Origin: Salvelinus alpinus
Taxonomy: Eukaryota > Chordata > Actinopteri > Salmoniformes > Salmonidae
DNA length: 64,000 bases
Reading direction: 5' to 3'
NCBI RefSeq assembly: GCF_045679555.1
Contig: NC_092089.1
Coordinates: forward strand, 7,298,506-7,362,505
Positions 4,301-63,055 of the stretch are shown piece after piece; positions within the stretch are counted from its first letter, which is position 1; the number at the start of each line of letters is the position of its first letter. Below the pieces are notes generated by a model. It was not told the origin of the DNA and ran no database searches. It saw only the letters and a list, made by a program, of their open reading frames with translations. The position numbers and the translations under genes were made by a program.

Positions 4301-7300
4301 AGCTGTAGATACTAATGGGCTATTGTATTGATGCCTATTAACATGTTACCTAGTTTAATAACTGTCTATTTCTCCTTCAGCTGTAGATACTAATGGGCTA
4401 TTGTATTGATGCCTATTAACATGTTACCTAGTTTAATAACTGTCTATTTCTCCTTCAGCTGTAGATACTAATGGGCTATTGTATTGATGCCTATTAACAT
4501 GTTACCTAGTTTAATAACTGTCTATTTCTCCTTCAGCTGTAGATACTAATGGGCTATTGTATTGATGCCTATTAGCATGTTACCTAGTTTAATAACTGTC
4601 TATTTCTCCTTCAGCTGTAGATACTAATGGGCTATTGTATTGATGCCTATCAACATGTTACCTAGTTTAATAACTGTCTATTTATCCTTCAGCTGTAGAT
4701 ACTAATGGGCTATTGTATTGATGCCTATTAGCATGTTACCTAGTTTAATAACTGTCTATTTATCCTTCAGCTGTAGATACTAATGGGCTATTGTATTGAT
4801 GCCTATTAGCATGTTACCTAGTTTAATAACTGTCTATTTATCCTTCAGCTGTAGATACTAATGGGCTATTGTATTGATGCCTATTAGCATGTTACCTAGT
4901 TTAATAACTGTCTATTTATCCTTCAGCTGTAGATACTAATGGGCTATTGTATTGATGCCTATTAGCATGTTACCTAGTTTAATAACTGTCTATTTATCCT
5001 TCAGCTGTAGATACTAATGGGCTATTGTATTGATGCCTATTAGCATGTTACCTAGTTTAATAACTGTCTATTTATCCTTCAGCTGTAGATACTAAGGGGC
5101 TATTGTATTGATGCCTATTAGCATGTTACCTAGTTTAATAACTGTCTATTTATCCTTCAGCTGTAGATACTAATGGGCTATTGTATTGATGCCCTATTAA
5201 CATGTTACCTAGTTTAATAACTGTCTATTTATCCTTCAGCTGTAGATACTAATGGGCTATTGTATTGATGCCTATTAACATGTTACCTAGTTTAATAACT
5301 GTCTATTTATCCTTCAGCTGTAGATACTAATGGGCTATTGTATTGATGCCCTATTAACATGTTACCTAGTTTAATAACTGTCTATTTATCCTTCAGCTGT
5401 AGATACTAATGGGCTATTGTATTGATGCCCTATTAGCATGTTACCTAGTTTAATAACTGTCTATTTCTCCTTCAGCTGTAGATACTAATGGGCTATTGTA
5501 TTGATGCCTATTAGCATGTTACCTAGTTTAATAACTGTCTATTTATCCTTCAGCTGTAGATACTAATGGGCTATTGTATTGATGCCTATTAGCATGTTAC
5601 CTAGTTTAATAACTGTCTATTTATCCTTCAGCTGTAGATACTAATGGGCTATTGTATTGATGCCTATTAGCATGTTACCTAGTTTAATAACTGTCTATTT
5701 ATCCTTCAGCTGTAGATACTAATGGGCTATTGTATTGATGCCTATTAGCATGTTACCTAGTTTAATAACTGTCTATTTCTCCTTCAGCTGTAGATACTAA
5801 TGGGCTATTGTATTGATGCCCTATTAGCATGTTACCTAGTTTAATAACTGTCTATTTATCCTTCAGCTGTAGATACTAATGGGCTATTGTATTGATGCCC
5901 TATTAACATGTTACCTAGTTTAATAACTGTCTATTTATCCTTCAGCTGTAGATACTAATGGGCTATTGTATTGATGCCCTATTAACATGTTACCTAGTTT
6001 AATAACTGTCTATTTCTCCTTCAGCTGTAGATACTAATGGGCTATTGTATTGATGCCCTATTAACATGTTACCTAGTTTAATAACTGTCTATTTCTCCTT
6101 CAGCTGTAGATACTAATGGGCTATTGTATTGATGCCTATTAACATGTTACCTAGTTTAATAACTGTCTATTTATCCTTCAGCTGTAGATACTAATGGGCT
6201 ATTGTATTGATGCCTATTAACATGTTACCTAGTTTAATAACTGTCTATTTATCCTTCAGCTGTAGATACTAATGGGCTATTGTATTGATGCCTATTAACA
6301 TGTTACCTAGTTTAATAACTGTCTATTTCTCCTTCAGCTGTAGATACTAATGGGCTATTGTATTGATGCCTATTAGCATGTTACCTAGTTTAATAACTGT
6401 CTATTTATCCTTCAGCTGTAGATACTAATGGGCTATTGTATTGATGCCTATTAGCATGTTACCTAGTTTAATAACTGTCTATTTATCCTTCAGCTGTAGA
6501 TAATAATGGGCTATTGTATTGATGCCTATTAGCATGTTACCTAGTTTAATAACTGTCTATTTATCCTTCAGCTGTAGATACTAATGGGCTATTGTATTGA
6601 TGCCCTATTAACATGTTACCTAGTTTAATAACGGTCTATTTATCATTGTCTCCTTAGCTCTCGCGCCCACCCTCCCATGTTAGCAGTGGGAAGTGATGAC
6701 AGCAACGTGATGTACGGTGGGAAGGTTCAGATCTACGAGTACAATGAAAACACTAGGTCAGTCCTATTACATTATTAGTACAATGAAAACACTAGGTCAG
6801 TCCTATTACATTATTAGTAATGAAAACACTAGGTCGGTCCTATTACATTATTAGTATAATGAAAACACTAGGTCAGTCCTATTACATTATTAGTAATGAA
6901 AACACTAGGTCCTATTACATTATTAGTACAATGAAAACACTAGGTCAGTCCTATTACATTATTAGTAATGAAAACACTAGGTCCTATTACATTATTAGTA
7001 ATGAAAACACTAGGTCAGTCCTATTACATTATTAGTATAATGACAACACTAGGTCAGTCCTATTACATTATTAGTATAATGACAACACTAGGTCAGTCCT
7101 ATTACATTATTAGTAATGAAAACACTAGGTCAGTCCTATTACATTATCAGTACAATGAAAACACTAGGTCAGTCCTATTACATTATCAGTACAATGAAAA
7201 CACTAGGTCAGTCCTATTACATTATCAGTATAATGAAAACACTAGGTCAGTCCTATTACATTATCAGTACAATGAAAAAACTAGGTCAGTCCTATTACAT

Positions 7301-10300
7301 TATTAGTACAATGAAAACACTAGGTCAGTCCTATTACATTATTAGTAATGAAAACACTAGGTCAGTCCTATTACATTATTAGTAATGAAAACACTAGGTC
7401 AGTCCTATTACATTATCAGTATAATGAAAACACTAGGTCAGTCCTATTACATTATTAGTATAATGACAACACTCGGTCAGTCCTATTACATTATTAGTAA
7501 TGAAAACACTAGGTCAGTCCTATTACATTATTAGTAATGAAAACACTAGGTCAGTCCTATTACATTATCAGTATAATGAAAACACTAGGTCAGTCCTATT
7601 ACATTATTAGTAATGAAAACACTAGGTCCTATTACATTATTAGTAATGAAAACACTAGGTCAGTCCTATTACATTATTAGTAATGAAAACACTAGGTCCT
7701 ATTACATTATTAGTACAATGAAAACACTAGGTCAGTCCTATTACATTATTAGTAATGAAAACACTAGGTCCTATTACATTATCAGTATAATGAAAACACT
7801 AGGTCAGTCCTATTACATTATTAGTAATGAAAACACTAGGTCCTATTACATTATTAGTACAATGAAAACACTAGGTCAGTCCTATTACATTATTAGTAAT
7901 GAAAACACTAGGTCAGTCCTATTACATTATTAGTAATGAAAACACTAGGTCAGTCCTATTACATTATCAGTATAATGAAAACACTAGGTCAGTCCTATTA
8001 CATTATTAGTATAATGACAACACTCGGTCAGTCCTATTACATTATTAGTAATGAAAACACTAGGTCAGTCCTATTACATTATTAGTAATGAAAACACTAG
8101 GTCAGTCCTATTACATTATCAGTATAATGAAAACACTAGGTCAGTCCTATTACATTATTAGTAATGAAAACACTAGGTCCTATTACATTATTAGTAATGA
8201 AAACACTAGGTCAGTCCTATTACATTATTAGTAATGAAAACACTAGGTCCTATTACATTATTAGTACAATGAAAACACTAGGTCAGTCCTATTACATTAT
8301 TAGTAATGAAAACACTAGGTCCTATTACATTATCAGTATAATGAAAACACTAGGTCAGTCCTATTACATTATTAGTAATGAAAACACTAGGTCCTATTAC
8401 ATTATTAGTACAATGAAAACACTAGGTCAGTCCTATTACATTATTAGTAATGAAAACACTAGGTCAGTCCTATTACATTATTAGTAATGAAAACACTAGG
8501 TCAGTCCTATTACATTATTAGTATAATGACAACACTAGGTCAGTCCTATTACATTATTAGTATAATGACAACACTAGGTCAGTCCTATTACATTATTAGT
8601 AATGAAAACACTAGGTCAGTCCTATTACATTATCAGTAGAATGAAAACACTAGGTCAGTCCTATTACAATATTAGTATAATGAAAACACTAGGTCAGTCC
8701 TATTACATTATCAGTATAATGAAAACACTAGGTCAGTCCTATTACATTATCAGTATAATGAAAAAACTAGGTCAGTCCTATTACATTATTAGTACAATGA
8801 AAACACTAGGTCCTATTACATTATTAGTACAATGAAAACACTAGGTCAGTCCTATTACATTATTAGTACAATGAAAACACTAGGTCCTATTACATTATTA
8901 GTACAATGAAAACACTAGGTCAGTCCTATTACATTATTAGTAATGAAAACACTAGGTCAGTCCTATTACATTATTAGTAATGAAAACACTAGGTCAGTCC
9001 TATTACATTATCAGTATAATGAAAACACTAGGTCAGTCCTATTACATTATACAGGTGGACCAGGTGGTTACATGAACCCCCAGTTCCCTTGGGAGAAATA
9101 CAGCTGATCTGTTTTCTACCGTATGATGTTGTAATCGTTGTCTGTTCTAGTATTAAATCAATTCTAGACTTTTAGTTCACTTTTACCGACATCACATTAT
9201 CATGTTGTTAGAGATTCCTCTACTTTACGAGGGAAATCCTCTCATCTTTTGATCAGGAAATATGCGAAAGCCGAGACATTGATGACCGTGACTGATGCGG
9301 TGCATGACATAGCCTTCTCCCCTAACCTGGGGCGGTCCTTCCACGTGCTCGCCATAGCAACCAAAGATGTTCGGATCTTTAAGTTGGTACCTTTGCGGTG
9401 AGTGTATAAATGTAAATGTTTATTTTAAAACAACTTTTTACTAAGGTTTTCTGTCTTTATAGGAGTACATATTGAGTTTTCTAATAGATATTAGCTGTAT
9501 ATATATATTTTTAAAACGTGCTGCATTGTCTAAGTAGTAGATCACAGCCGTTCGGAGCTTGTACAGTGTCCATATATTATTCTGACCTGTTCTGCATCTC
9601 TCTTGTCCGACAGTAAGGAGAGCAGCTCAACAGGCCCTACTAAAGGGAGTTATTCTAGGGATTATTCTGAGCTGTTCTGCATCTCTCTCTCTTGTCTGAC
9701 AGTAAGGAGAGCAGCTCAACAGGCCCTACTAAAGGGAGTTATTCTAGGGATTATTCTGAGCTGTTCTGCATCTCTCTTGTCCGACAGTAAGGAGAGCAGC
9801 TCAACAGGCCCTACTAAAGGGAGTTATTCTAGGGATTATTCTGACCTGTTCTGCATCTCTCTTGTCCGACAGTAAGGAGAGCAGCTCAACAGGCCCTACT
9901 AAAGGGAGTTATTCTAGGGATTATTCTGAGCTGTTCTGCATCTCTCTTGTCCGACAGTAAGGAGAGCAGCTCAACAGGCCCTACTAAAGGGAGTTATTCT
10001 AGGGATTATTCTGAGCTGTTCTGCATCTCTCTTGTCCGACAGTAAGGAGAGCAGCTCAACAGGTCCTACTAAAGGGAGTTATTCTAGGGATTATTCTAGG
10101 GATTATTCTGACCTGTTCTGCATCTCTCTTGTCCGACAGTAAGGAGAGCAGCTCAACAGGCCCTACTAAAGGGAGTTATTCTAGGGATTATTCTGACCTG
10201 TTCTGCATCTCTCTTGTCCGACAGTAAGGAGAGCAGCTCAACAGGCCCTACTAAAGGGAGTTATTCTAGGGATTATTCTGACCTGTTCTGCATCTCTCTT

Positions 10301-13300
10301 GTCCGACAGTAAGGAGAGCAGCTCAACAGGCCCTACTAAAGGGAGTTATTCTAGGGATTATTCTGAGCTGTTCTGCATCTCTCTTGTCCGACAGTAAGGA
10401 GAGCAGCTCAACAGGCCCTACTAAATTTGAGGTTCAGATCGTGGCCCAGTTCGACAACCACAACTCCCAGGTGTGGAGAGTCTCCTGGAACATCACCAGC
10501 ACCTTGCTGGCCTCGTCGGGAGACGACGGCTGTGTCCGACTCTGGAAAGGTGATGTATCTAGACTGAAAAGGCTGTGTCCCACTCTGGAAAGGTGATCTA
10601 TCCTAGTATAGACTGAAAAGGCTGTGTCCGACTCTGGAAAGGTGATCTATCTAGTATAGACTGAAAAGGCTGTGTCCCACTCTGGAAAGGTGATCTATCT
10701 AGTATAGACTGAAAAGGCTGTGTCCCACTCTGGGAAGGTGATCTATCTAGTATAGACTGAAAAGGCTGTGTCCCACTCTGGAAAGGTGATCTATCTAGTA
10801 TAGACTGAAAACAGAATGGATGACGTAGTGCACAAAAAACAGAATGGATGACGTAGTGCACAAAAAAACAGAATGGATGACGTAGTGCACAAAACACAGA
10901 ATGGATGACGTAGTGCACAAAAAAACAGAATGGATGACGTAGTGCACAAAAAACAGAATGGATGACGTAGTGCACAAAAAACAGAATGGATGACGTAGTG
11001 CACAAAAAAACAGAATGGATGACGTAGTGCACAAAAAAACAGAATGGATGACGTAGTGCACAAAAAACAGAATGGATGACATGGTGCACCAAAAACAGAA
11101 TGGATGACGTAGTGCACCAAAAACAGAATGGATGACGTAGTGCACCAAAAACAGAATGGATGACGTAGTGCACCAAAAACAGAATGGATGACGTAGTGCA
11201 CAAAAAACAGAATGGATGACGTAGTGCACAAAAAAACAGAATGGATGACGTAGTGCACAAAAAACAGAATGGATGACGTAGTGCACAAAAAACAGAATGG
11301 ATGACGTAGTGCACAAAAAACAGAATGGATGACGTAGTGCACAAAAAAACAGAATGGATGACGTAGTGCACCAAAAACAGAATGGATGACGTAGTGCACA
11401 AAAAAACAGAATGGATGACGTAGTGCACCAAAAACAGAATGGATGACGTAGTGCACAAAAAACAGAATGGATGACGTAGTGCACAAAAAAACAGAATGGA
11501 TGACGTAGTGCACCAAAAACAGAATGGATGACGTAGTGCACCAAAAACAGAATGGATGACGTAGTGCACAAAAAAACAGAATGGATGACATGGTGCACAA
11601 AAAACAGAATGGATGACATGGTGCACAAAAAACAGGGACCTGTTTCAGCCTTTCAAAACTTCAGGCTAAAATGTTACAAACGTTTGAGAGTCCATCTTTT
11701 AAATGACTTAACTAGTTTATTATGTCCTGCAACTTAACCATGACCACTAGAGTTGGCCAGGCAGCAGGGTTGGGACCAGGCTAAAAGTCTATCCAGTCAG
11801 TTTACATTTACATTTACATTTAAGTCAGTTAGCTGACGCTCTTATCCAGAGCGACTTACAAATTGGAAAGTTCATACATATTCATCCATATTCATCCTGG
11901 TCCCCCCGTGGGGAATGAACCCACAACCCTGGCGTTGCAAGCGCCATGCTCTACCAACTGAGCCACACGGGACCGTGTGGCCCGTGTGGCTCAGTTTAAA
12001 GCCAATGGTTTAGCTGAAACGAACTAGAAGTGTCCATCTACTGGTGAACTGTGTAAAGTTCCCCACACATTGACACTGTGTCGTTGGTTCCCATCTTCTG
12101 GTCCCCAGCCAACTATATGGACAACTGGAAATGTACCGGCATCCTGAAGGGAGACGGGAGTCCAGTCAACGGGTCGTCAGGACAACCCGGTGCCATGAAT
12201 ACCATGGTGGGCTGCACTGTCCAGACCTCCCAGAATGCACTGAACGGCTCTGCTGCAGGAAGGTAGGAGGCCGCGCCCGCTGGTCGGCCCGGCCAGAGCT
12301 GGCGACTGACTGCTTTACTCTCTCTGGGCCTGACTGACCCTGCAGCACTGACCCTGACCCCCCCCCCCTCCCTGGGTCAACTGATCACAACTGACCCTGA
12401 CCCCCCCCCTCCCTGGGTCAACTGATCACAACTGACCCCGTGTGTTGCACTCATGCAAAGAGCTTGGCTTGTGGCAAGGCCCCAGCAGGTCAGGCCCAGC
12501 AGGTCAGACCCAGCAGGTCAGACCCAGCACGTAGGCCCTGTGGAAGGCGTGTGTGCTCGTTATTAACGGATTGTTTGGGAGGGCTACAGTTTAATGTTCG
12601 TACAACAGCGGACTGAGGTTTTGATTGTACAATAATTGTTGGTGATTGTTTGTTGACACAATTTTATGTTGATGGAACATGAATGTTATTTTGAAGAATA
12701 TCATTTCTTTTTTTTTACATTTTAGATTAGTTACACTTACAGATGTCTGTCATCCTCACATAATGCCCCAGAAACCATCAGCTTTTCAATACATGACATA
12801 CCAGGGCCAAACATACAGCCTTGCTAAATTTAATAATTTACTATTTTGATGTAATCTTATAATAGCATGTATAGAATGTTTGGAGGGCATATTGATAAAT
12901 AATAAATTTTCATCTTTTCAATACGTTTTTTTATTATTTTTTAACCAAAACGTTGCCAAAGTCTTTGCATGGTGGAGGAATGTCTGGAATATAATCTGGT
13001 AATAATCCCTATTAACCTGCTGGTAATCTGCAATTAATTTGAATGAAATAATGACTGAAGGCCGGTCAACATGCTAGTGCTTTAATAACACACACAGTTA
13101 ATATTGCTGAGTTTATATTCAATACTCCTCCTAGTACTGTATATTAACATTCAGTTTCCAGACATTATACTCTCCTAGTACTGTATATCAACATTCAGTT
13201 TCCAGACATTATACTCTCCTAGTACTGTATATCAACATTCAGTTTCCAGACATTATACTCTCCTAGTACTGTATATTAACATTCCGTTTCCAGACATTAT

Positions 13301-23042: not shown

Positions 23043-23307
23043 CCCTCTAGAGCCCTCAACACCCTGCCTGAACACCACTGACCCTCCAGAGCCCTCAACA
23101 CCCTGCCTGAACACCACTGACCCTCCAGAGCCCTCAACACCCTGCCTGAACACAACACCCTCCAGAGCCCTCAACACCCTGCCTGAACACCACTGACCCT
23201 CCAGAGCCCTCAACACCCTGCCTGAACACAACACCCTCCAGAGCCCTCAACACCCTGCCTGAACACCACTGACCCTCCAGAGCCCTCAACACCCTGCCTG
23301 AACACGG
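23011..23307. repeat. 39-bp tandem repeat copying the seh1l stop codon, 8 copies
   Basis: Units of GAGCCCTCAACACCCTGCCT then GAACACCACTGA and CCCTCCA. The first copy is coding ([10 protein letters not shown], stop). Later copies lie in the 3' UTR and most keep the stop-like ACTGA; three are shortened to GAACACAACACCC or diverged. Confidence 0.95.
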
Positions 23308-23680
23308 CTGACTGTGAAGGTACTCTTCTTCTTAGTGACTAATCAAAAGAAGACCATCCCCTCTCCCAGAACAGTTTGGTTGGTGCATAAAACCAGGTGA
23401 ATCTTGATAAGCAAAAATGTAATGATTTCTTAGACATTTTGTTTACGATAGTCCCTCCATAATATAAACAGCCCTGGTGCTGACTGACAATTCTCCTCCC
23501 CGGCAGTCTGCCTCCCCGGCAGTCGGCCCGGATGTAGTCACCCAGAGTTGTGAGTGATGATTCCCTAGATATATTTGATCTCTGTTTTTATTTCATTAAA
23601 AACCAACATGCTGGTTTACTACGGTGCCTGTGGTTCAAACTCACATCACTGTGTTGTTATAAGACCGCGGCTCTGTGTGT
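23308..23680 (+). other. seh1l 3' UTR / downstream, single-copy
   Basis: No gene is seen. An ATTAAA-containing run near 23594 is a weak alternative polyadenylation signal. Confidence 0.5.
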
Positions 23681-23767
23681 GTTGTTCCTGTGTGTGTAGT
23701 TCCCGTGTGTGTGTAGTTCCCGTGTGTGTGTAGTTCCTGTGTGTGTGTGTAGTTCCTGTGTGTGTTT
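23680..23767. repeat. TG-rich microsatellite with GTAGTTCC interruptions
   Basis: Four units of roughly GTAGTTCCYGTGTGTGTGT. Low-complexity DNA. Confidence 0.9.
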
Positions 23768-23837
23768 AATTTCAAGCCTAATGTTATTGCATTAATCAAA
23801 TGGGGGATAGTTGATGCATATGAGATGGATTTGAAAG

Positions 23838-23843
23838 AATAAA
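23838..23843 (+). terminator. Candidate polyadenylation signal AATAAA for seh1l
   Basis: AATAAA lies about 0.8 kb after the seh1l stop codon. It is the first perfect AATAAA that I find after the stop. The cleavage site cannot be proved without transcripts. Confidence 0.4.
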
Positions 23844-23934
23844 TGCTCATTTAAATGTCTCTACTGACTATAGCATCACCACAGTAACATTTAAACCCAA
23901 CGCTGTTATACAATGTAGCTGTGTATCCGATGCA

Positions 23935-24455: not shown

Positions 24456-24519
24456 AATAGTGATCCAGAGGCATCACATGGTCTGAGCCTGGATTCTGAT
24501 TTTGAAACCCCTGAGCACT

Positions 24520-26104: not shown

Positions 26105-26158
26105 TTGATGGTCTGCAGTAGAACCTGAGGTAGCGGGCCTAACCGTAGCCCCGACATC
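26105..26158 (+). other. cep192: cep192 5' UTR in the start-codon exon
   Basis: This is the stretch between the acceptor CCACTCAG (ending 26104) and the ATG at 26159. It has no upstream in-frame ATG that would compete. The context gacatcATGacc is acceptable. Confidence 0.55.
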
Positions 26159-26325
26159 ATGACCGAGAGTTTCAGCAACATCGAGGATGAGGCGTTCCCC
26201 AGTTTCCTGTCTAGCTCTGTGGGCAGCAGCCGTGCCACCCTGGGTAACGTCACCCTGGCCTCCACCCTGGGGCTGCCCGTAGCTGCCTCCACCATGGCTA
26301 AAATTAGAGCTGGGGCTGACAACAG
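26159..26325 (+). CDS. cep192: cep192 coding exon 1 (codons 1-56)
   Basis: It encodes [20 protein letters not shown] then [20 protein letters not shown] and ADNR. It aligns by eye with the human start (EESFPSFL, ENVTLSSNLGLPVAVSTLA, TDNR). The donor is ACAG|GTGGGT, phase 2. The Ser-Thr at 44-45 matches the Plk1 docking site. Confidence 0.94.
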
Positions 26326-56300: not shown

Positions 56301-59300
56301 TGATTCCCACTGTGAGGCCGGCCAGCTCAGCCAGTAAGACACTTATTCCTGATTCCCACTGTGAGGCCAGCCAGTAAGACACTTATTCCTGATTCCCACT
56401 GTGAGGCCAGCCAGTAAGACACGTATTCCTGATTCCCGCTGTGAGGCCGGCCAGGTCAGCCAGTAACACACTTATTCCTGATTCCCACTGTGAGGCCAGC
56501 CAGTAAGACATTTATTCCTGATTCCCACTGTGAGGCCGGCCAGTTCATTTTTACTTGGTTTGGCATCATTTTTCTTACTTGATCAGTCATCATCTTTATT
56601 CCTAATTTTAAACTCAAATCAGTCATAATCAGAGTATCACATATGGTGGTTGATACTTCCAATGTGTTGTTCTTGTAGAGGACTTGGACAAGACTGTGGA
56701 GGCGGCTGCAGACAGGGTGTCACCTACAGGAGATGACGAGCCAGAGCCTTGTGAATCAGCCTCCCGCCTCCCCGAAGCCCTGCTCTCCCCCAGCCAGAGC
56801 CTTCCCTCAGCCTCCCCCCTCCCTGAGGCCCTGCTCTCCCCCAGCCAGACCCTTCCCTCAGCCTCCCCCCTCCCTGAAGCCCTGCTCTCCCCCGGCCAGA
56901 GCCTTCCCTCAGCCTCCCCCCTCCCCGAGGCCCTGCTCTCCCCCAGCCAGAGCCTTCCCTCAGCCTCCCCCCTCCCTGAAGCCCTGCTCTCCCCCGGCCA
57001 GAGCCTTCCCTCAGCCTCCCCCGGCAGCCTGGGCCCCAGCCCCGGCAGCAGCACAGACCAGTCTAACCTCACGCTGTCTATCAGCACCATCGCCTCGGCC
57101 ATCTCAGATGCCTCCATCTCCTCAGAGCCCTCCCAGCTGGCTGCCATGATCATGGAGCTGTCAAAGAGGAGTAGGATACAGAGGCAACAGCAGAAAGGTC
57201 TGCCGGGTCCAGACCCAGGTATCCCATATTCATAAGTACATCTGAAATTCTACTCTTTAATTCTGTGTGTTTGTTGGAAGGTGATGTCAGCACCACTAGA
57301 ACACAGTTCATGAAAAATGTAAAGGAGATTTGATTCTGATTCCCAGCCTCTGTCCTGGAAGAACAAACACCCAGCCCTAACCAGGTTCAACTGGACCAGC
57401 CCAGCCCTAACCAGGTTCAACTGGACCAGAGAATCCTGCTGGAGACTCTACAGAGGAGCCAGTGTGCCGGAGACCTGCTGGAGACTCTACAGAGGAGCCA
57501 GTGTGCCGGAGACCTGAGTGCCTTCGACATTGAAAAGTACCTGAAGCAGACAGAGGTATCCACCAGCAGCGACAGCGACCAGTCAGGCTCCTCCCACTAC
57601 ACCTTTGACTTCCTCAGCTGGGCCGACAGCCTCAACTCCTCCCGCAGGAAGTCCCAGGCCGCATCGCTTGTTGTTACTGTGGAGAACGAGAGCTCGGGTT
57701 ATCAACACCAGGCTACCGAATACCAGGCTAGCACCAAGGGAGCTATCTCCTCTGGCGTAGAGGCTAAGGCAGGTTTGACACAAGGTTACCCTGCTGCTAC
57801 GACCCATCCAGTCTCTGCTGGGCTACATCCAGGTTCTGGCCAGAGTGGACCAGGACCAGCTAACAAGACGGAGGTGAGGAGGAGTTCCATCCCCCGTCCC
57901 AGGGCCAGCTCCATCCCTACAGCGTCTGGTAACCCAGGGAGGAGGTCTGTGGTCTCTGGTCAGTACTCCTCAACCACCTCCTCCACAGCCAAACCAGCTG
58001 CCGACAGGAAGTCCGCAGGGAATAACAGTGAGCCCCAGCCAGCTGGTGTACTGAGCAACACAGAGAGTGGTGGGGCTGAACTAGGAGCAGTCCGTCCAAC
58101 ACCTAACAACACCCCAGCACAGAAGGTTGAGGACCGCTCCTCAGCTGCTGCCCCAGGCCCTAAGACCTCCCCTGGTCTGAGGAAGGGTCTGTCGGGGCCT
58201 CCGTCCCTCAGAGACATCACATCCCCCTCCCAGAGAGCCAGGAGGAGCACAGCGAAGACCCACGCTACAGGGAGCAGTACAGCCCAGCAGGAGAACCCCA
58301 GTGGCCTGGAGAAGAGTGTTGGAGAAGCTCCTCCCAGCGCTGTGGCCAAACGTGTTGGTTTTACTTCCTCCTGTCACAGCCCCCAGCCTGCTGCTGCCCA
58401 CAGGACAGACGGTCAGTCTCTGGTCCAATCAACCACATTATTCAGCTGTTCTTTAACTCATTTAAGAGAGAAATAAACGCGTTTGTAAAGCTTAGCTTAG
58501 TTTCCATCCCATTTTGTTCCTGGTCCTTCCGGCTGGGTTCAGGTTTTTCAATGTTGATTATAGTTTATTTGAGGTAATTTCCTGGTCTTGTGTTCTGCAG
58601 ATAATGATAATGGAGGATTTAGTTCATTGGTTAAGGAGTGTATTAATGTCCTGGTCAGGTGGTGGATAGTAATGTGTTGTATTAATATCCTGGTCAGGTG
58701 ATGGATAGTAATGTGTTGTATTAATGTCCTGGTCAGGTGGTGGATAGTAATGTGTTGTATTAATGTCCTGGTCAGGTGATGGATAGTAATGTGTTGTATT
58801 AATGTCCTGGTCAGGTGGTGGACAGTAATGTGTTGTATTAATGTCCTGGTCAGGTGGTGGATAGTAATGTGTTGTATTAATGTCCTGGTCAGGTGATGGA
58901 TAGTAATGTGTTGTATTAATGTCCTGGTCAGGTGGTGGATAGTAATGTGTTGTATTAATGTCCTGGTCAGGTGGTGGATAGTAATGTGTTGTATTAATGT
59001 CCTGGTCAGGTGATGGATAGTAATGTGTTGTATTAATGTCAGGTGATGGATAGTAATGTGTTGTATTAATGTCCTGGTCAGGTGGTGGATAGTAATGTGT
59101 TGTATTAATGTCCTGGTCAGGTGATGGATAGTAATGTGTTGTATTAATGTCCTGGTCAGGTGATGGATAGTTATGTGTTTTATTAATGTCCTGGTCAGGT
59201 GATGGATAGTAATGTGTTGTATTAATGTCCTGGTCAGGTGATGGATAGTAATGTGTTGTATTAATGTCCTGGTCAGGTGATGGATAGTAATGTGTTGTAT

Positions 59301-60420
59301 TAATGTCCTGGTAATGTGTTGTATTACTGTCCTGGTCAGGTGATGGACAGTAATGTGTTGTATTAATGTCCTGGTCAGGTGATGGATAGTAATGTGTTGT
59401 ATTAATGTCCTGGTCAGGTGATGGATAGTAATGTGTTATATTAATGTCCTGGTAATGTGTTGTATTAATGTCCTGGTCAGGTGATGGATAGTAATGTGTT
59501 ATATTAATGTCCTGGTAATGTGTTGTATTAATGTCCTGGTCAGGTGATGGATAGTAATGTGTTATATTAATGTCCTGGTAATGTGTTGTATTACTGTCCT
59601 GGTCAGGTGATGGACAGTAATGTGTTGTATTAATGTCCTGGTCAGGTGGTGGATAGTAATGTGTTGTATTAATGTCCTGGTCAGGTGATGGATAGTAATG
59701 TGTTGTATTAATGTCCTGGTCAGGTGGTGGACAGTAATGTGTTGTATTAATGTCCTGGTCAGGTGGTGGACAGTAATGTGTTGTATTAATGTCCTGGTCA
59801 GGTGATGGATAGTAATGTGTTGTATTAATGTCCTGGTCAGGTGGTGGACAGTAATGTGTTGTATTAATGTCCTGGTCAGGTGGTGGACAGTAATGTGTTG
59901 TATTAATGTCCTGGTCAGGTGATGGATAGTAATGTGTTGTATTAATGTCCTGGTCAGGTGGTGGATAGTAATGTGTTGTTCTCTACAGATGTGTTTCCAG
60001 GTACTCCTATGCATCATGCCGGAGGCCCAGAGCAGAGCCAGTGTACCTTCAGACCCTCCACCTCTCCTCTCACCCACTCCTCCCCCTCACAGACCTCCTT
60101 CCCCAGCCAAGAAGGGTACACTGCTGCTTCAAATCAACCAATCCATCAATCAATGATTAAATCAATCAGTTGTGTCAGGTTGTTGCCCTCTACTGTGTAC
60201 CTCCTAGTTGCAGTTTATCCTAAATCTTGTATTTCTCTCTGGTCTCTGGTGCCTCTCCAGGACTGTCTCTCCCCCCTCCTCCAGGGTAGGGGACAGAAGA
60301 CCTCCCAGTGATCTCACTCCTCCCCAGTCTGAGTGGAGCTGTTCCAGTCCCAGCCTCAGCAGACTGACGTACATCTCTCTGAATGACAGCACTGACATCC
60401 CAACACCTGACAGACACAAG
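26159..60420 (+). CDS. cep192: Centrosomal protein 192, 5' part of gene (19 coding exons; continues past window)
   Basis: Nineteen exons join into 4266 nt, 1422 codons, without a stop; the final splice is in phase 0 at 60420. Cep192 (SPD-2 family) is the scaffold of the pericentriolar material. It recruits Plk4 for centriole duplication and Aurora A and Plk1 for centrosome maturation and spindle assembly. Recognised landmarks: the N-terminus [20 protein letters not shown] with a conserved Ser-Thr pair at 44-45 (Plk1 polo-box docking site in human, T44); the acidic [15 protein letters not shown] at about 212-228 (Plk4-binding region); [20 protein letters not shown] at about 602-621 (Aurora A-binding region); [78 protein letters not shown]. 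The C-terminal PapD/ASH-like domains are not in the window (human protein about 2500 residues). Almost every intron carries a minisatellite. Confidence 0.93.
26502..26612 (+). CDS. cep192: cep192 coding exon 2 (codons 56-93)
   Basis: It encodes [20 protein letters not shown] then [10 protein letters not shown]. Human has QASYLVEGRFSV and LQLSFQDD. The acceptor is CTCTCCAG and the donor GAGCT|GTGAGT; phase 2 at both ends. Confidence 0.93.
26790..27165. repeat. 26-bp tandem repeat in cep192 intron 2, about 14 copies
   Basis: Units of GGAGAAGTACAGGGTTAAGG then AGCCCC, with variable lengths between copies. It ends about 75 bp before the exon 3 acceptor. Before it, 26613-26789 is single-copy intron. 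Confidence 0.94.
27240..27394 (+). CDS. cep192: cep192 coding exon 3 (codons 93-145)
   Basis: It encodes [20 protein letters not shown] then [11 protein letters not shown] to SEHGD. The acceptor CCACCTCTCAG follows a (CT)n pyrimidine tract. The donor is GACG|GTAACA, phase 1. Confidence 0.88.
27429..27562 (+). mobile_element. tRNA-derived SINE copy
   Basis: The head GTGTGGCTCAGTTGGTAGAG has an A-box-like motif, and GGTTCGATTCC is a clear B box. The tail AAGTGGCTTTGGATAAAAGC ATCTGCTAAATGACA is typical of fish SINEs. It sits 34 bp after the exon 3 donor and ends in a T-rich/ATT microsatellite. Confidence 0.85.
27563..27720. repeat. Irregular (TTA)n/(AGT)n microsatellite
   Basis: Runs of TTATTATTAGTAGTAGT type directly after the SINE, probably grown from its tail. 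Confidence 0.9.
27770..31010. repeat. 47-bp minisatellite in cep192 intron 3, about 69 copies
   Basis: Units of CTTCACTAGTTGATAGATCA then GTGATGTCCATCAGGCTGGT and CTCCGTC. Marker variants (GGCCTCCG with CCATAAGG; the duplicated CCGTCCATCAGG; GTGTTTCAC with ATCACCATC) recur in the same order near 28.14 kb and 29.41 kb. This gives a higher-order period of about 1.27 kb. Confidence 0.97.
31063..31124 (+). CDS. cep192: cep192 coding exon 4 (codons 145-165)
   Basis: A 62-nt exon encoding [20 protein letters not shown] after the split Asp codon. The acceptor is CCCTATCAG and the donor AAAG|GTATCA, phase 0. Support comes from frame continuity; I cannot recall a matching human segment. Confidence 0.82.
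31160..33160. repeat. 39-52-bp minisatellite in cep192 intron 4, about 45 copies
   Basis: Units of CTGTCCAGGCCTTTAGGGTC then CAGTATGGGTGGTAGCC and a variable ACCTCTCCCTCCCC. The unit end TCCCTCCCCCTGTCCAG|G resembles an acceptor. A rare GGGTTCAGT unit near 31711 and 32435 shows a block period of about 724 bp. Two copies of the true exon 5 acceptor region (near 32230-32285 and 33005-33070) are embedded. Confidence 0.96.
33194..33335 (+). CDS. cep192: cep192 coding exon 5 (codons 166-213)
   Basis: It encodes [20 protein letters not shown] then [20 protein letters not shown] and SMNSDVT, Ser/Asp-rich. The acceptor is CTGGGATCCAG; the same acceptor sequence occurs twice upstream in the array. 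The donor is ACAG|GTGAGG, phase 1. Confidence 0.88.
33515..34555. repeat. 41-bp minisatellite in cep192 intron 5, about 25 copies
   Basis: Units of CTGGTGGGGGTTATAGCTGT then GTATTGTGTCTGAACACCTCT. One unit contains an uninterrupted run of 18 G at 33619-33636. Confidence 0.97.
34600..34715 (+). CDS. cep192: cep192 coding exon 6 (codons 213-251), acidic Plk4-binding region
   Basis: It encodes [20 protein letters not shown] then VSPAMQRG and EIPVA. The acidic stretch matches human DDDIDDEMFYDDHLEAYFEQ. In human that segment binds the cryptic polo box of Plk4 and brings it to the mother centriole. The acceptor is GATCCCCAG and the donor GCT|GTAAGG, phase 0. Confidence 0.92.
34725..35095. repeat. 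22-bp pyrimidine-rich repeat after the exon 6 donor, about 16 copies
   Basis: Units of CTTTCTCCCCTCTCTCCCCC TG. The + strand is almost pure pyrimidine for about 370 bp with one G per unit. Open frames on both strands here come from the repeat. Confidence 0.96.
35163..35252 (+). CDS. cep192: cep192 coding exon 7 (codons 252-281)
   Basis: It encodes [20 protein letters not shown] then [10 protein letters not shown]. The acceptor is TTGATTTTCAG and the donor CAG|GTGGAT, phase 0 at both ends. Confidence 0.87.
35305..35425. repeat. 20-bp tandem repeat in cep192 intron 7
   Basis: Five to six units of AGACACACAGGCGGGCGGGC. The short stretch after it (35426-35563) shows nothing. Confidence 0.93.
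35564..37968. repeat. 38-bp minisatellite in cep192 intron 7, about 63 copies
   Basis: Units of CAAGCATCTTCTAGAGATCT then GTTGATAGGACAGGCACC. It is very homogeneous: nearly all variation is CACC versus CGCC and GACAGG versus GAGAGG. Low divergence suggests recent expansion or active homogenisation. Confidence 0.97.
38207..39715. repeat. 40-bp minisatellite in cep192 intron 7, about 38 copies
   Basis: Units of GTGGGCTGTGATTGACAGCT then GAGCAGCCAGTGTTGACTAG. The period is exactly 40 bp with no indel in the array. Variants (ACAAATGAGG, GGCAACTGAG, GGTTGACAGC, GGCTTTGATT) recur in ordered blocks. Between it and the 38-bp array, 37969-38206 is single-copy intron. Confidence 0.97.
39712..39765 (+). 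mobile_element. HpaI-type SINE tail fragment
   Basis: TGTTCTTAACTGACCTGCCTCGTTAAATGAAG is the diagnostic 3' end of this salmonid SINE family (compare 44434-44584), here without its body. Confidence 0.6.
39990..40265 (-). mobile_element. Non-LTR retrotransposon reverse transcriptase fragment, frameshifted
   Basis: On the minus strand, [20 protein letters not shown] (about 40160-40222) is a typical RT motif. It is followed in another frame by [20 protein letters not shown] (about 40080-40140), which carries the catalytic ADD box, and [17 protein letters not shown] (about 40030-40080). One frameshift between the two blocks and missing flanks show a dead copy. The clade cannot be named by eye. 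Confidence 0.8.
40266..40570. other. Single-copy part of cep192 intron 7
   Basis: AT-rich intron. It may include more of the retrotransposon, but I see no certain motif. Confidence 0.5.
40572..40915. repeat. About 30-bp tandem repeat in cep192 intron 7, 11 copies
   Basis: Units of CTCTGGCTCGGTTGGGCCTG then GTTGGCTACGT, with variants CGGTGGGG, CGCCGGGG and CGGGCGGGGT. Open frames in three phases are repeat artefacts. Confidence 0.94.
41140..41283 (+). CDS. cep192: cep192 coding exon 8 (codons 282-329)
   Basis: It encodes [20 protein letters not shown] then [11 protein letters not shown] to SSTSRQL, acidic and Ser-rich. The acceptor GGTTTCCAG keeps the frame. The stronger-looking CTATTTCAG 49 bp upstream would bring an in-frame TGA, so it was rejected. 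The donor is CTG|GTATGA, phase 0. Confidence 0.82.
41517..41661 (+). CDS. cep192: cep192 coding exon 9 (codons 330-378)
   Basis: It encodes [20 protein letters not shown] then [20 protein letters not shown] and GQVINTVT. The acceptor is CTGTGTTAG and the donor ACAG|GTAACA, phase 1. A Tc1 element starts nine bases after the donor. Confidence 0.88.
41671..42799 (+). mobile_element. Tc1/mariner-type transposon, internally deleted and 3'-truncated
   Basis: The left end is ACTGAACAAAAATAGGAAAT then GTGTTGGTCCCATGTTTCAT. Transposase-derived stretches follow: near 42165-42330 a block reading close to GVMVLG and [16 protein letters not shown] (catalytic-core context), and near 42400-42560 the C-terminal part ([20 protein letters not shown]). 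Several hundred bases are missing at about 42115-42122, where CACGTGTA joins TGGCGTTGTG. The right terminal repeat is cut off after TTCCTTATATGAAC. Frameshifts and stops make it inactive. It resembles the abundant Tc1 family of salmonids. Confidence 0.88.
42800..43065. repeat. 21-bp tandem repeat in cep192 intron 9, about 12 copies
   Basis: Units of CTCTGGGTGGACGTTGGGGA C. Because 21 is a multiple of three, two + strand frames stay open through it. It abuts the broken end of the Tc1 copy and stops about 15 bp before the exon 10 acceptor. Confidence 0.95.
43081..43343 (+). CDS. cep192: cep192 coding exon 10 (codons 378-465)
   Basis: It encodes a Gly/Ser-rich start ([20 protein letters not shown]) and then [20 protein letters not shown] to [11 protein letters not shown]. 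The acceptor is TTCTTCACCAG and the donor CTG|GTGAGT, phase 0. Confidence 0.88.
43631..43780 (+). CDS. cep192: cep192 coding exon 11 (codons 466-515)
   Basis: It encodes [20 protein letters not shown] then [15 protein letters not shown] to QSSFHLSQ. The acceptor is TTGTGCAG and the donor CAG|GTACAC; phase 0 at both ends. Confidence 0.87.
43921..44173 (+). CDS. cep192: cep192 coding exon 12 (codons 516-600)
   Basis: It encodes [20 protein letters not shown] then [20 protein letters not shown] and [11 protein letters not shown]. Acidic and Ser-rich clusters dominate. The acceptor is CTATACCAG and the donor CCGG|GTAAGT, phase 1. Confidence 0.88.
44180..44433. repeat. 29-bp tandem repeat after the exon 12 donor, about 8 copies
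   Basis: Units of CTCCCCGCGTAGTGGTCCGG then TACAAACGG, starting about 10 bp into intron 12. Confidence 0.95.
44434..44584 (+). mobile_element. HpaI-type SINE, internally shortened
   Basis: The head GGTTGTTAGAGCGTTGGGCC is followed by ATAACCGAAAGGTTGCTGG, then the body TTCTGCCCCTGAACACGGCA and the tail AAGAATTTGTTCTTAACTGA CTTGCCTAGTTAAATAAG. The part with the family's HpaI site (GTTAAC after CGGCA) is missing. This family is restricted to salmonids, which supports the host assignment. Confidence 0.82.
44584..44705. repeat. 21-bp tandem repeat, 6 copies
   Basis: Units of GATCCCTGGGCGGACGGGTC A, directly after the SINE tail. Confidence 0.95.
44706..45090. repeat. 45-bp tandem repeat in cep192 intron 12, about 8 copies
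   Basis: Units of TTTAATATCTAATCAACTAG then ATCCAGGATCCTTACAGGGG TCATG. After it, 45091-45280 is single-copy intron. Confidence 0.95.
45281..45715. repeat. 60-70-bp tandem repeat seeded by the exon 13 acceptor, about 6 copies
   Basis: Units of TGTGTGATCCAG|CCTCTCAC then AGTGTGGTCTACCAGAACGA G, followed by GTCTGTGTGTTTCATTGTCC and a (TG)n stretch. The last copy is the real acceptor and first bases of exon 13 (SHSVVYQNE). The first copy has a 9-bp core in inverted orientation at 45309-45317. Confidence 0.95.
45684..45827 (+). CDS. cep192: cep192 coding exon 13 (codons 600-648), Aurora A-binding region
   Basis: It encodes [20 protein letters not shown] then [15 protein letters not shown] to EDFVPG. 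Human has [20 protein letters not shown]. This part of vertebrate Cep192 binds Aurora A. The acceptor GTGATCCAG is the last of several copies. The CACAG 10 bases further on would break the frame. The donor is GGCA|GTAAGT, phase 1. Confidence 0.94.
45995..52592. repeat. About 41-bp minisatellite filling cep192 intron 13, about 165 copies
   Basis: Units of GGTTAGTATCAGCCTAGCGT then TTAGTTTGGTACAGCCGGGG, with a variable G-run and a frequent form lacking TAGTT. Rare variants recur in the same order: TTTAGATTGG near 46341 and 47707, and TTTGGAACAGCC near 47241 and 48606. This gives a higher-order period of about 1365 bp. At 45828-45994 the intron is single-copy. Confidence 0.97.
52593..53280. other. 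Single-copy part of cep192 intron 13, with one repeat fragment
   Basis: No exon is seen. A fragment of the interspersed repeat also present at 22088 lies at about 52797-52930. Confidence 0.6.
52797..52930. mobile_element. Salmonid-type interspersed repeat fragment
   Basis: The order GTATTTGTCAAGTCCCCCG, AATACAACAGGTGTAGACCT, TACAGTCAAATGCTTACGTA and CTAACCAACAGTGCA matches the family at 22088-22265. Confidence 0.65.
53290..54165. repeat. 50-60-bp tandem repeat seeded by the exon 14 acceptor, about 17 copies
   Basis: Units of GTCCTGTTTTATTGTGTTCC AG|GTAACACCATAGACAGATC with a short variable end (AGGAGTT, ACCAGTGTGCTGGAGTT). The last copy is the real acceptor of exon 14. Each unit puts an acceptor-like TTTTATTGTGTTCCAG directly against a donor-like GTAAC. 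Confidence 0.96.
54154..54443 (+). CDS. cep192: cep192 coding exon 14 (codons 648-744)
   Basis: It encodes [20 protein letters not shown] then [16 protein letters not shown] and [30 protein letters not shown]. Human has [20 protein letters not shown]. The acceptor GTGTTCCAG is the last copy of the array; the one 59 bp upstream shifts the frame to a stop. The donor is CGG|GTATGG, phase 0. Confidence 0.93.
54527..55600. repeat. 73-75-bp tandem repeat in cep192 intron 14, about 13 copies
   Basis: Units of TTTTAGTTGAGGAATACGAG then GCTTCGGTCTGGGAAACCTG, CCCGCGGTGCGTAGGGACAG and TAGGGTTGGTGTCC. A SINE (54610-54765) sits in the first unit only. Confidence 0.95.
54610..54765 (-). mobile_element. 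tRNA-derived SINE inside the tandem array
   Basis: Same family and orientation as 11801-11980: minus-strand head TGGCTCAGTTGGTAGAGCAT, tail AAGTCGCTCTGGATAAGAGC and AAATGTAAATG repeats. The copy is cleanly bounded by array sequence. Confidence 0.82.
55679..55820 (+). CDS. cep192: cep192 coding exon 15 (codons 745-792)
   Basis: It encodes [20 protein letters not shown] then [20 protein letters not shown] and HDHTMNT. Human has PSFGYFIRSPEKREPIALIR. The acceptor is TTCTCTCCAG and the donor ACAG|GTACGT, phase 1. Confidence 0.94.
55845..56545. repeat. 40-52-bp tandem repeat in cep192 intron 15, about 16 copies
   Basis: Units of GGCCAGCCAGTAAGACACTT then ATTCCTGATTCCCACTGTGA, some with an extra GGCCGGCCAGCTCA. 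56546-56678 is single-copy. Confidence 0.95.
56679..57218 (+). CDS. cep192: cep192 coding exon 16 (codons 792-972), with coding minisatellite
   Basis: It encodes [20 protein letters not shown], then five in-frame copies of a 17-residue Pro/Ser-rich unit ([17 protein letters not shown]), then [40 protein letters not shown] and RQQQKG. The last block matches human [20 protein letters not shown]. The acceptor is TTCTTGTAG and the donor CCAG|GTATCC, phase 1. Confidence 0.92.
56756..57020 (+). repeat. cep192: 51-bp coding tandem repeat, 5 copies (17 residues each)
   Basis: In-frame repeat inside exon 16, variants [14 protein letters not shown] and SPGQSLP. The open minus-strand frames over it are shadows. 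Confidence 0.95.
57347..58411 (+). CDS. cep192: cep192 coding exon 17 (codons 972-1327)
   Basis: Largest exon, 1065 nt. It begins [18 protein letters not shown] with two internal in-frame duplications: [10 protein letters not shown] twice and [13 protein letters not shown] twice (39 bp). Then come [20 protein letters not shown] (human LDMEKYLKKTEVS) and [13 protein letters not shown], followed by a long low-complexity Ser/Pro/Ala-rich region and [14 protein letters not shown] (human KHVTFENHR). It is likely disordered. The acceptor is TGATTCCCAG and the donor GACG|GTCAGT, phase 1. Confidence 0.92.
58620..59985. repeat. 39-bp minisatellite in cep192 intron 17, about 35 copies
   Basis: Units of GTCCTGGTCAGGTGATGGAT then AGTAATGTGTTGTATTAAT, some shortened to CCTGGTAATGTGTTGTATT. 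It runs to within a few bases of the exon 18 acceptor; the last unit's ATGTGTTG passes into TTCTCTACAG. 58412-58619 is single-copy. Confidence 0.97.
59989..60115 (+). CDS. cep192: cep192 coding exon 18 (codons 1327-1369)
   Basis: It encodes [20 protein letters not shown] then [22 protein letters not shown]. Human has [16 protein letters not shown]. The acceptor is TTCTCTACAG and the donor GAAGG|GTACAC, phase 2. Intron 18 (60116-60260) is short and array-free. Confidence 0.93.
60261..60420 (+). CDS. cep192: cep192 coding exon 19 (codons 1369-1422), last exon in window
   Basis: It encodes [20 protein letters not shown] then [23 protein letters not shown]. Human has VSRLTYVSEPESSYP. The acceptor is GCCTCTCCAG and the donor AAG|GTATAG, phase 0. 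The last 26 bases plus the donor are the first unit of the array that follows. Confidence 0.92.
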
Positions 60421-63055
60421 GTATAGTAGGCATGACAGCATCCCAACACCTGACAGACACAAGGAATAGTAGGCATGACAGCATCCCAACACCTGACAGA
60501 CACAAGGTATAGTAGGCATGACAGCACGGCATCCCAACACCTGACAGACACAAGGTATAGTAGGCATGACAGCATCCCAACACCTGACAGACACAAGGTA
60601 TAGTAGGCATGACAGCACGGCATCCCAACACCTGACAGACACAAGGTATAGTAGGCATGACAGCATCCCAACACCTGACAGACACAAGGAATAGTAGGCA
60701 TGACAGCATCCCAACACCTGACAGACACAAGGTATAGTTGGCATGACAGCATCCCAACACCTGACAGACACAAGGAATAGTAGGCATGACAGCACGGCAT
60801 CCCAACACCTGACAGAGACAAGGTATAGTTGGCATGACAGCATCCCAACACCTGACAGACACAAGGTATAGTAGGCATGACAGCATCCCAACACCTGACA
60901 GACACAAGGTATAGTTGGCATGACAGCATCCCAACACCTGACAGAGACAAGGTATAGTTGGCATGACAGCATCCCAACACCTGACAGACACAAGGTATAG
61001 TTGGCATGACAGCACGGCATCCCAACACCTGACAGAGACAAGGTATAGTTGGCATGACAGCATCCCAACACCTGACAGACACAAGGTATAGTATGCATGA
61101 CAGCATCCCAACACCTGACAGAGACAAGGTATAGTTGGCATGACAGCATCCCAACACCTGACAGACACAAGGTATAGTATGCATGACAGCATCCCAACAC
61201 CTGACAGAGACAAGGTATAGTTGGCATGACAGCATCCCAACACCTGACAGACACAAGGTATAGTTGGCATGACAGCATCCCAACACCTGACAGACACAAG
61301 GTATAGTATGCATGACAGCATCCCAACACCTGACAGAGACAAGGTATAGTTGGCATGACAGCATCCCAACACCTGACAGACACAAGGAATAGTAGGCATG
61401 ACAGCACGGCATCCCAACACCTGACAGACACAAGGTATAGTAGGCATGACAGCATCCCAACACCTGACAGACACAAGGTATAGTTGGCATGACAGCACGG
61501 CATCCCAACACCTGACAGACACAAGGTATAGTTGGCATGACAGCACGGCATCCCAACACCTGACAGACACAAGGTATAGTAGGCATGACAGCATCCCAAC
61601 ACCTGACAGACACAAGGTATAGTAGGCATGACAGCATCCCAACACCTGACAGAGACAAGGTATAGTTGGCATGACAGCACGGCATCCCAACACCTGACAG
61701 ACACAAGGTATAGTAGGCATGACAGCACGGCATCCCAACACCTGACAGACACAAGGTATAGTTGGCATGACAGCACGGCATCCCAACACCTGACAGACAC
61801 AAGGTATAGTAGGCATGACAGCATCCCAACACCTGACAGACACAAGGAATAGTAGGCATGACAGCACGGCATCCCAACACCTGACAGACACAAGGTATAG
61901 TTGGCATGACAGCATCCCAACACCTGACAGACACAAGGTATAGTATGCATGACAGCATCCCAACACCTGACAGAGACAAGGTATAGTTGGCATGACAGCA
62001 TCCCAACACCTGACAGACACAAGGAATAGTAGGCATGACAGCACGGCATCCCAACACCTGACAGACACAAGGTATAGTAGGCATGACAGCATCCCAACAC
62101 CTGACAGACACAAGGTATAGTATGCATGACAGCACGGCATCCCAACACCTGACAGACACAAGGTATAGTAGGCATGACAGCATCCCAACACCTGACAGAC
62201 ACAAGGAATAGTTGGCATGACAGCATCCCAACACCTGACAGACACAAGGTATAGTAGGCATGACAGCACGGCATCCCAACACCTGACAGAGACAAGGTAT
62301 AGTTGGCATGACAGCACGGCATCCCAACACCTGACAGAGACAAGGTATAGTTGGCATGACAGCACGGCATCCCAACACCTGACAGACACAAGGTATAGTA
62401 GGCATGACAGCACGGCATCCCAACACCTGACAGACACAAGGTATAGTTGGCATGACAGCATCCCAACACCTGACAGACACAAGGTATAGTAGGCATGACA
62501 GCATCCCAACACCTGACAGACACAAGGTATAGTTGGCATGACAGCATCCCAACACCTGACAGACACAAGGTATAGTTGGCATGACAGCATCCCAACACCT
62601 GACAGAGACAAGGTATAGTAGGCATGACAGCATCCCAACACCTGACAGAGACAAGGTATAGTTGGCATGACAGCATCCCAACACCTGACAGAGACAAGGT
62701 ATAGTAGGCATGACAGCATCCCAACACCTGACAGAGACAAGGTATAGTTGGCATGACAGCATCCCAACACCTGACAGACACAAGGTATAGTTGGCATGAC
62801 AGCATCCCAACACCTGACAGAGACAAGGTATAGTAGGCATGACAGCATCCCAACACCTGACAGAGACAAGGTATAGTTGGCATGACAGCATCCCAACACC
62901 TGACAGAGACAAGGTATAGTAGGCATGACAGCATCCCAACACCTGACAGAGACAAGGTATAGTTGGCATGACAGCATCCCAACACCTGACAGAGACAAGG
63001 TATAGTTGGCATGACAGCACGGCATCCCAACACCTGACAGACACAAGGTATAGTA
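60395..63055. repeat. 43/48-bp minisatellite seeded by the exon 19 donor, about 60 copies
   Basis: Units of CATCCCAACACCTGACAGAC ACAAG|GTATAGTAGGCATGA CAG, with a 5-bp CACGG insertion in some. Every unit repeats the exon 19 end and donor; retention of any copy gives GTA TAG, a stop. The three very long minus-strand open frames (about 930-945 codons) exist because the unit has no stop on that strand. Confidence 0.97.

Follow-up and report, generated by a model that had tools for sequence, protein, structure and literature searches.

Minisatellite-like tandem duplications of exon/intron boundaries are known in amphioxus as "mirages," described in the Adh3, globin, troponin C, and PGBD5 genes, where splicing is normal as far as it was tested and where the phenomenon was suggested to be general in cephalochordates (PMC3087553; PMC3902484). 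Variable internal tandem repeats at exon-intron boundaries have also been reported in human segmentally duplicated genes (PMC2812944). In addition, tandem duplication of AG/GT-containing sequence has been proposed as a route of intron gain (Rogers 1989; Gao and Lynch 2009, as quoted in PMC3087553), with a case in a potato RdRp gene (PMC4974935). Here, we analyzed a 64,000-nucleotide (nt) stretch of the Salvelinus alpinus genome (2.37 Gb; assembly GCF_045679555.1, contig NC_092089.1, hereafter C4, positions 7298506 to 7362505), called the window below, which carries seh1l and the start of cep192. Large minisatellites straddle true splice junctions of both genes, and the density of arrays around exons places them in an array-enriched strip that flanks exons.

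Six arrays in the window contain a true junction, and one further acceptor is present in three copies, as follows (coordinates of the window; TRF, Tandem Repeats Finder).

6738..9050, + strand: seh1l exon 5 donor array, 38/39-bp unit, 62 copies (TRF); true donor 6756/6757 in the first copy, 19 exonic nt.
9576..10425, + strand: seh1l exon 7 acceptor array, 85-bp unit, about 10 copies; true acceptor 10394/10395 in the last copy, 31 exonic nt.
10528..10811, + strand: seh1l exon 7 donor array, 48-bp unit, 6 copies; true donor 10549/10550 in the first copy, 22 exonic nt.
45273..45713, + strand: cep192 exon 13 acceptor array, 73-bp unit, 5.9 copies (TRF); true site 45683/45684 in the last copy, 30 exonic nt.
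53297..54174, + strand: cep192 exon 14 acceptor array, 48/58-bp unit, 17 copies found; true site 54153/54154 in the last copy, 21 exonic nt.
60396..63059, + strand: cep192 exon 19 donor array, 43-bp unit, about 60 copies; true site 60420/60421 in the first copy, 25 exonic nt.
32225..33207, + strand: cep192 exon 5 acceptor triplication, identical 64-base copies at 32225-32288, 33010-33073, and 33144-33207; true site 33193/33194.

A preliminary description of this DNA had named the first six junctions and placed the true site in an end copy. All six lie inside arrays, and the true junction occupies the exon-side end copy in six of six. The arrays do not start exactly on the exon edges, as had also been stated, and instead reach 19 to 31 nt into the exon. 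The cep192 exon 5 acceptor is a seventh duplicated junction that the preliminary description lacked; its three copies are without mismatch and lie inside a larger array, and they were left out of the statistics since TRF did not join them. Signs that the edge copy escapes homogenization, as in mirages, vary among the arrays: they are seen at cep192 exon 14, where the real and next copies are identical and the copies that follow score 0.62 to 0.67 (ungapped), and they are not seen at the cep192 exon 19 donor (mean identity, 0.99) or the seh1l exon 7 acceptor (mean, 1.00). In 16 of the 17 copies of the exon 14 array, the acceptor is followed directly by donor-like sequence (ttccag/GTAAC), which is the form of a recursive-splicing ratchet site. 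Across all DNA examined, 21 of 202 junctions, on several chromosomes, are straddled by an array (11 donors and 10 acceptors), with units of 26 to 148 bp repeated up to about 60 times.

These arrays resemble the mirages in that the units span a true 5′ or 3′ exon boundary and the AG/GT signals are retained in the copies. The excerpted mirage accounts proceed gene by gene, with units of 10 to 160 bp and with 6 and 3 repeat units in the quoted haplotypes; the fish arrays differ in reaching about 60 copies and in affecting 21 of 202 junctions on several chromosomes, and their enrichment at exon edges has no counterpart in those excerpts (PMC3087553; PMC3902484). The human repeats are likewise minisatellites at exon-intron boundaries for which alternative splicing is possible, but the abstract-level account gives an average of four 30-bp units and describes them as able to form novel introns (PMC2812944). 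Among the matches listed from open-licence literature, as judged by titles and the starts of abstracts, none dealt with minisatellite enrichment at exon edges or with such arrays in salmonids. The kind of structure is known already from the amphioxus mirages, while its scale in this fish and its clustering at exon edges appear to be new.

Arrays called by TRF cover 45,442 of the 64,000 window bases (71%), which raises the possibility that the straddlers are due to chance alone in an array-saturated block, where arrays survive unless they hit coding sequence. For the null test, each array was collapsed to one unit and the units were placed randomly on the collapsed sequence, with any position allowed (null A) or with wholly exonic positions excluded (null B), and with a straddle defined as at least 5 nt on each side of the junction. 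Within the window, 6 of 53 junctions are straddled versus 3.45 (A) and 4.38 (B) expected (P = 0.13 and 0.27; 0.12 to 0.27 in repeat runs). The window alone therefore shows no clear excess, because its arrays are so dense. With at least 15 nt required on each side, the P value falls to 0.002 to 0.006, a threshold chosen after the data had been seen. Array density alone was accepted at first as the explanation and was then overturned by tests on unseen DNA.

Outside the window, exons were recognized by open frames, splice signals, and family matches. The rest of cep192 (C4, window coordinates 63060 to 120342, 23 exons recognized) has 7 of 45 junctions straddled versus 3.25/3.63 expected (P = 0.04/0.07), a PTPN2-like gene has 2 of 6 (0.56/0.70; P = 0.09/0.13), an RNMT-like gene has 1 of 10 (0.36/0.42), and a second seh1l copy on C29 has 1 of 12 (0.35/0.38), the last two with P values of 0.30 to 0.36. 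Together, the array-dense C4 and C29 DNA outside the window gives 11 of 73 versus 4.5 to 5.1 (P = 0.005 to 0.012). A further 40 exons, taken from the match lists of the myosin and kinesin families before their DNA was seen (20 with 400-bp and 20 with 130-bp flanks), give 4 of 76 versus 0.61/0.79 (P = 0.002 to 0.006). The straddlers beyond C4 and C29 are a myosin exon donor (L046), a kinesin donor (L077), and two kinesin acceptors (L083 and L087). The pooled count outside the window is 15 of 149 junctions versus 5.13/5.92 (P = 0.0001/0.0005), or 2.5 to 2.9 times the expectation. The kinesin (P = 0.04/0.15) and myosin (P = 0.10/0.11) sets are weak singly, which, like the window itself, leaves room for chance; the pooled excess, including the 40 exons elsewhere, disfavors chance, which we regard as quite improbable. 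The excess of junction-straddling arrays looks real and extends beyond this locus. The preliminary description had called chance unlikely, a view borne out by the DNA outside the window and not by the window itself.

Several assignments behind these counts were made by hand. In the downstream cep192 chain, 21 of 22 consecutive joins were phase compatible before hand correction, by a method that favors such joins; the D22 acceptor was set to 116977 (116870 lay inside an array), and the ends of D1, D17, D18, and D23 were corrected. Judging by the order of the human protein, the set of identified cep192 exons probably lacks several that lie between them, and the junctions of these enter none of the counts. 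The acceptors of L034, L036, L041, and L043 were left uncounted (site doubtful or not found), as was L086, with 1 exonic nt. The first RNMT-like exon was dropped, having no donor found, the exon 4 donor of the C29 seh1l copy was set to 11115, and the L046 unit was set to 39 and not to the 187 of TRF.

The position of the excess was examined with the unit centers ("seeds") of five gene spans (108 seeds and 17 straddlers, the 40 myosin and kinesin exons excluded) as a function of how far they lie from the closest junction. There are 5.5 seeds per kb at distances of up to 8 bp; on the intron side, the density is 3.4 to 5.3 per kb between 8 and 80 bp, about 2 per kb at 80 to 300 bp, and about 1 per kb beyond 300 bp; in exons deeper than 8 bp it is 0.3 to 1.1 per kb, except for 2.0 per kb at 80 to 150 bp. 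The near zone (8 bp exonic to 80 bp intronic) thus carries 4.45 seeds per kb versus 1.43 farther out, and outside the window 4.76 versus 1.20 (P = 2e-7, counts treated as independent). Dilution by transposons was rejected as the sole cause of this profile, as masking of repeat-like sequence on C4 reduced but did not remove the enrichment (5.6 per kb near versus 2.55 at 80 to 300 bp; P = 0.0012). The enriched zone is the exon-flanking DNA of about 80 bp, which is 2 to 4 times denser in arrays.

A stronger form of the preliminary claim holds that junction DNA itself is special, through the splice motif, the spliceosome, or R-loops. The 2.5- to 2.9-fold excess of straddled junctions in the confirmatory DNA is in line with it, as is the tendency of the junction to lie in the middle of the unit (fraction 0.30 to 0.62 in 16 of 21 versus 8.4 expected; Kolmogorov-Smirnov P = 0.014), although the latter would follow in part if a unit must hold sufficient intronic sequence. 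Against it, density stays about level over the first 80 intronic bp, the junction included. Straddlers with at least 5 nt on each side also match the local expectation within 100, 150, and 250 bp (17 versus 16.0, 14.6, and 13.4; P = 0.42, 0.27, and 0.17), including outside the window (11 versus 10.7, 9.6, and 8.2). Since the straddlers match the local seed density, the junction itself is not clearly special, and the straddlers look like the exon-side fringe of the enriched strip. We consider a property of the junction DNA itself unlikely; the excess in the preliminary description is supported, and the junction as its hot point is not. Among nonstraddling units (n = 73), splice-like motifs gave a weak signal on which we do not rely (median best donor score, 2.3 versus 1.1, P = 0.045; acceptor, P = 0.27).

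The exon-flanking enrichment could reflect either the birth of arrays or their survival. Exon edges may be mutational hot spots for tandem duplication, at nucleosome edges or through transcription- or splicing-coupled breaks, and the high seed density near exons would be expected under such a model. In a set of 101 arrays from four gene spans (15 straddlers, the PTPN2-like gene excluded), however, proximity to exons depends on array size. An exon edge is no more than 60 bp away for 30 of the 54 arrays of at least 10 copies, for 8 of the 28 of 3 to 10 copies, and for 3 of the 19 of fewer than 3 copies (largest versus smallest class, Fisher P = 0.003), and the median copy number is 16.9 near exons versus 7.4 far from them (P = 0.001). 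Because low-copy arrays are mostly not near exons, persistence and growth are favored over initiation, contrary to the earlier suggestion that junction-containing DNA is prone to tandem duplication. Positive GC skew on the coding strand is found in 6 of the 15 straddlers, 4 of the 18 arrays near donors, 12 of the 23 near acceptors, and 54 of all 101; the G-rich coding strand expected of R-loops is not typical of the straddlers or of the arrays near donors, and an R-loop origin, also raised in the preliminary description, was rejected on this ground.

The hot-spot model gains further support from the second seh1l copy on C29. Both gene copies have an array at the exon 7 acceptor, built from units whose lengths and ends are unrelated (85 bp, 31 exonic nt, on C4; 110 bp, 67 exonic nt, on C29), so that these arrays probably arose twice, once per copy. 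This recurrence is a single coincidence, and with the size dependence and GC skew against them we hold mutational hot spots to be a less probable explanation. An extra copy of the last ~65 bases of exon 7 is found ~5.7 kb downstream in the C29 intron (L020, about 2531-2597), followed by a 24-bp array.

The intron-gain model likewise invokes a short tandem duplication that carries splice-site signals. The fish arrays depart from it in that no new intron is seen: the C29 seh1l copy shares the donor of the 99-base exon 5, and hence the intron position, but no array straddles it there. The exon 5 intron is therefore older than its array, unlike the human novel-intron case, and at this one junction tested the intron at the duplicated site is not new.

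The composition of the straddling units points to a filter on what is kept. At least 18 intronic nt are retained by 20 of the 21 units versus 14.4 expected (P = 0.002), while the exonic part of the units has no such limit (at least 18 nt in 17 of 21 versus 14.4 expected; P = 0.15). Wholly exonic arrays number 4 in the window versus 9.6 expected (P = 0.016), and in the four gene spans there are only four, with units divisible by three in 4 of 4. The rarity of units with fewer than 18 intronic nt, together with few exonic arrays in steps of three, suggests that selection preserves the exon-side splice site and the reading frame. The earlier proposal that duplications with a spare splice site are better tolerated is thus supported too, though more weakly than the excess and to a degree that depends on the threshold (see below).

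Decoy sites, scored with frequency tables on copies that differ from the real core by at most 4 substitutions, are mostly as good as the real site. A score equal to or above that of the real site is reached by 46 of 49 decoys at the seh1l exon 5 donor (where 46 of 49 are identical to the real 9-mer), 52 of 59 at the cep192 exon 19 donor (GT kept in 52 of 59), 9 of 9 at the seh1l exon 7 acceptor, 4 of 4, 15 of 16, and 2 of 2 at the cep192 exon 13, 14, and 5 acceptors, and none of the 5 at the donor of seh1l exon 7, where the decoys are lower by 0.1. At seven junctions (six in the window plus cep192 D3), splicing to any of the 135 decoys tested would disrupt the reading frame, through a stop in 134 cases and a frameshift in 1, so functioning genes require splicing at the exon-side copy. 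That the arrays are themselves functional, as decoy or ratchet banks that buffer or regulate splicing, for example through recursive splicing at cep192 exon 14, would fit the near-perfect decoys in most copies and the acceptor directly followed by GTAAC in 15 of the 16 exon 14 decoys. Array turnover alone can yield such homogeneity, however, every tested decoy would disrupt the frame if it served as an exon end, and the other seh1l copy lacks the exon 5 array; a function of this kind is, in our judgment, very unlikely.

An assembly artifact is the least credible explanation. Copy numbers are known from one assembly and may still be wrong, but variants are present in many of the copies and the outermost exons are nonetheless open, the four exonic arrays keep the frame, and the same anatomy recurs on C4, C29, C13, C23, C9, and C7.

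Collectively, we somewhat favor the view that these are exon-edge minisatellites of the mirage kind that persist and grow in the exon-flanking strip under selection for the splice site and the frame. As the sequences show, an exon-edge segment of 26 to 148 bp has been multiplied in tandem to as many as about 60 copies. In straddling arrays, the copy attached to the exon body retains the frame-fitting site and the others are near-perfect intronic decoys, presumably harmless if exon definition lets the nearest complete site bordering the exon win. Under the favored model, large deletions or shifts of exon-edge DNA would damage the exon, so that duplications beside exons may last and expand while sequence deeper in the introns is replaced.

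Several points weigh against this model. Harmless splicing despite the decoys is deduced from open frames, and most of the confirmatory sets are weak singly, their strength coming from pooling. Persistence is a deduction, with a median within-array identity of 94 both near exons and far from them; exon edges that duplicate more often would yield the same profile. Low-copy TRF calls may partly be chance or transposon repeats, which would weaken the size argument. The splice-site filter depends on its threshold, as the same 20 of 21 units give P = 0.02 at 15 nt and 0.10 at 12 nt. When at least 10 nt is required on each side, 15 straddlers are found versus 11.3, 10.4, and 9.5 within 100, 150, and 250 bp (P = 0.12, 0.08, and 0.04), and some junction-specific effect, as in the stronger form of the preliminary claim, may therefore exist; outside the window the same test gives 9 versus 7.8, 7.0, and 6.0 (P = 0.36, 0.24, and 0.12). 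Transposon dilution is a possible partial cause of the density profile, since masking by similarity within the analyzed DNA misses old transposons.

The gene models in the window consist of 28 exons whose joins all preserve an open frame.

1282..23042, + strand: seh1l coding exons 1 to 9, open over every join, encoding SEH1.
26159..60420, + strand: cep192 coding exons 1 to 19; the gene runs beyond the window, with its stop at 120342 (window coordinates).

The seh1l protein matches solved SEH1 chains (E of about 1e-217), the cep192 exons downstream of the window match Cep192 domains 1 to 5, and the PTPN2-like and RNMT-like genes match Y_phosphatase and mRNA cap methyltransferase, respectively. 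Intron 2 of seh1l has an apparent GC donor (AAG/gcaagt, 1801-1809).

Other arrays of the window lie close to exons without straddling a junction, or contain the seh1l stop codon.

2966..6644, + strand: 78-bp array of 47 copies whose end lies 13 nt ahead of the seh1l exon 5 acceptor; exon-edge, nonstraddling.
34726..35096, + strand: 22-bp array beginning 10 nt past the cep192 exon 6 donor; exon-edge, nonstraddling.
44182..44435, + strand: 29-bp array beginning 8 nt past the cep192 exon 12 donor; exon-edge, nonstraddling.
58639..59979, + strand: 39-bp array ending 9 nt ahead of the cep192 exon 18 acceptor; exon-edge, nonstraddling.
23006..23312, + strand: 39-bp array, 8 copies, with the seh1l stop codon in the first copy; the sequence past the stop is noncoding.

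The seh1l stop codon, which ends at 23042, does lie within an array, as had been described. That of cep192 also falls in one, past the window on C4 (120317-120626 in window coordinates; 23-bp unit by TRF). The four in-frame coding minisatellites are found at 56756-57022, 57370-57516, and 22909-22985 (cep192 exons 16 and 17 and seh1l exon 9), with units of 51, 30 and 39, and 33 bp. An isolated ~20-base copy of a kinesin exon start in the preceding intron (L076, about 63-82) is a possible relic of a junction-spanning duplication.

The window sits in an array-dense distal block that comprises about the first 11 Mb of C4, a chromosome of 104 Mb. In a transect of two-kb samples along C4 (L050-L069), 9 of the 13 from 0.5 to 11 Mb have an array fraction of 0.33 to 1.0, those at 2 and 6.5 Mb are near zero, and those at 6 and 9 Mb are wholly or mostly N; seven samples from 14 to 101 Mb give 0 to 0.29. 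The 100 kb sampled on C29 is array dense too (71,059 bases summed over arrays), while array coverage around the 20 myosin exons elsewhere is 4%. After the second seh1l copy, a single degenerate 39-bp array extends over 39,535 bases with about 1,064 copies (TRF; C29:5427001-5477000, L021-L025). A transposon-like stretch, possibly Tc1-like, lies in a cep192 intron at 41691-42799, with similar DNA on C29.

Extended to the whole genome, the same reasoning tentatively suggests that exon edges serve as the chief nurseries for large minisatellites and that several per cent of junctions carry banks of ignored decoys, the ~80 bp beside exons and the junctions gaining or keeping duplications and then amplifying them severalfold above other noncoding DNA; we place this at slightly below an even chance. 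If it is true, exon structure would be tied to where minisatellites are born or kept. It would also provide a vertebrate with many naturally duplicated splice sites, up to dozens of them near-identical in a row with one that fits the frame, in which the choice of splice site can be tested, and a large stock of starting states for the model in which introns and exons change by tandem duplication. Where exon edges are of this type, it may then be unsafe to rely on gene annotation and short-read variant calls.

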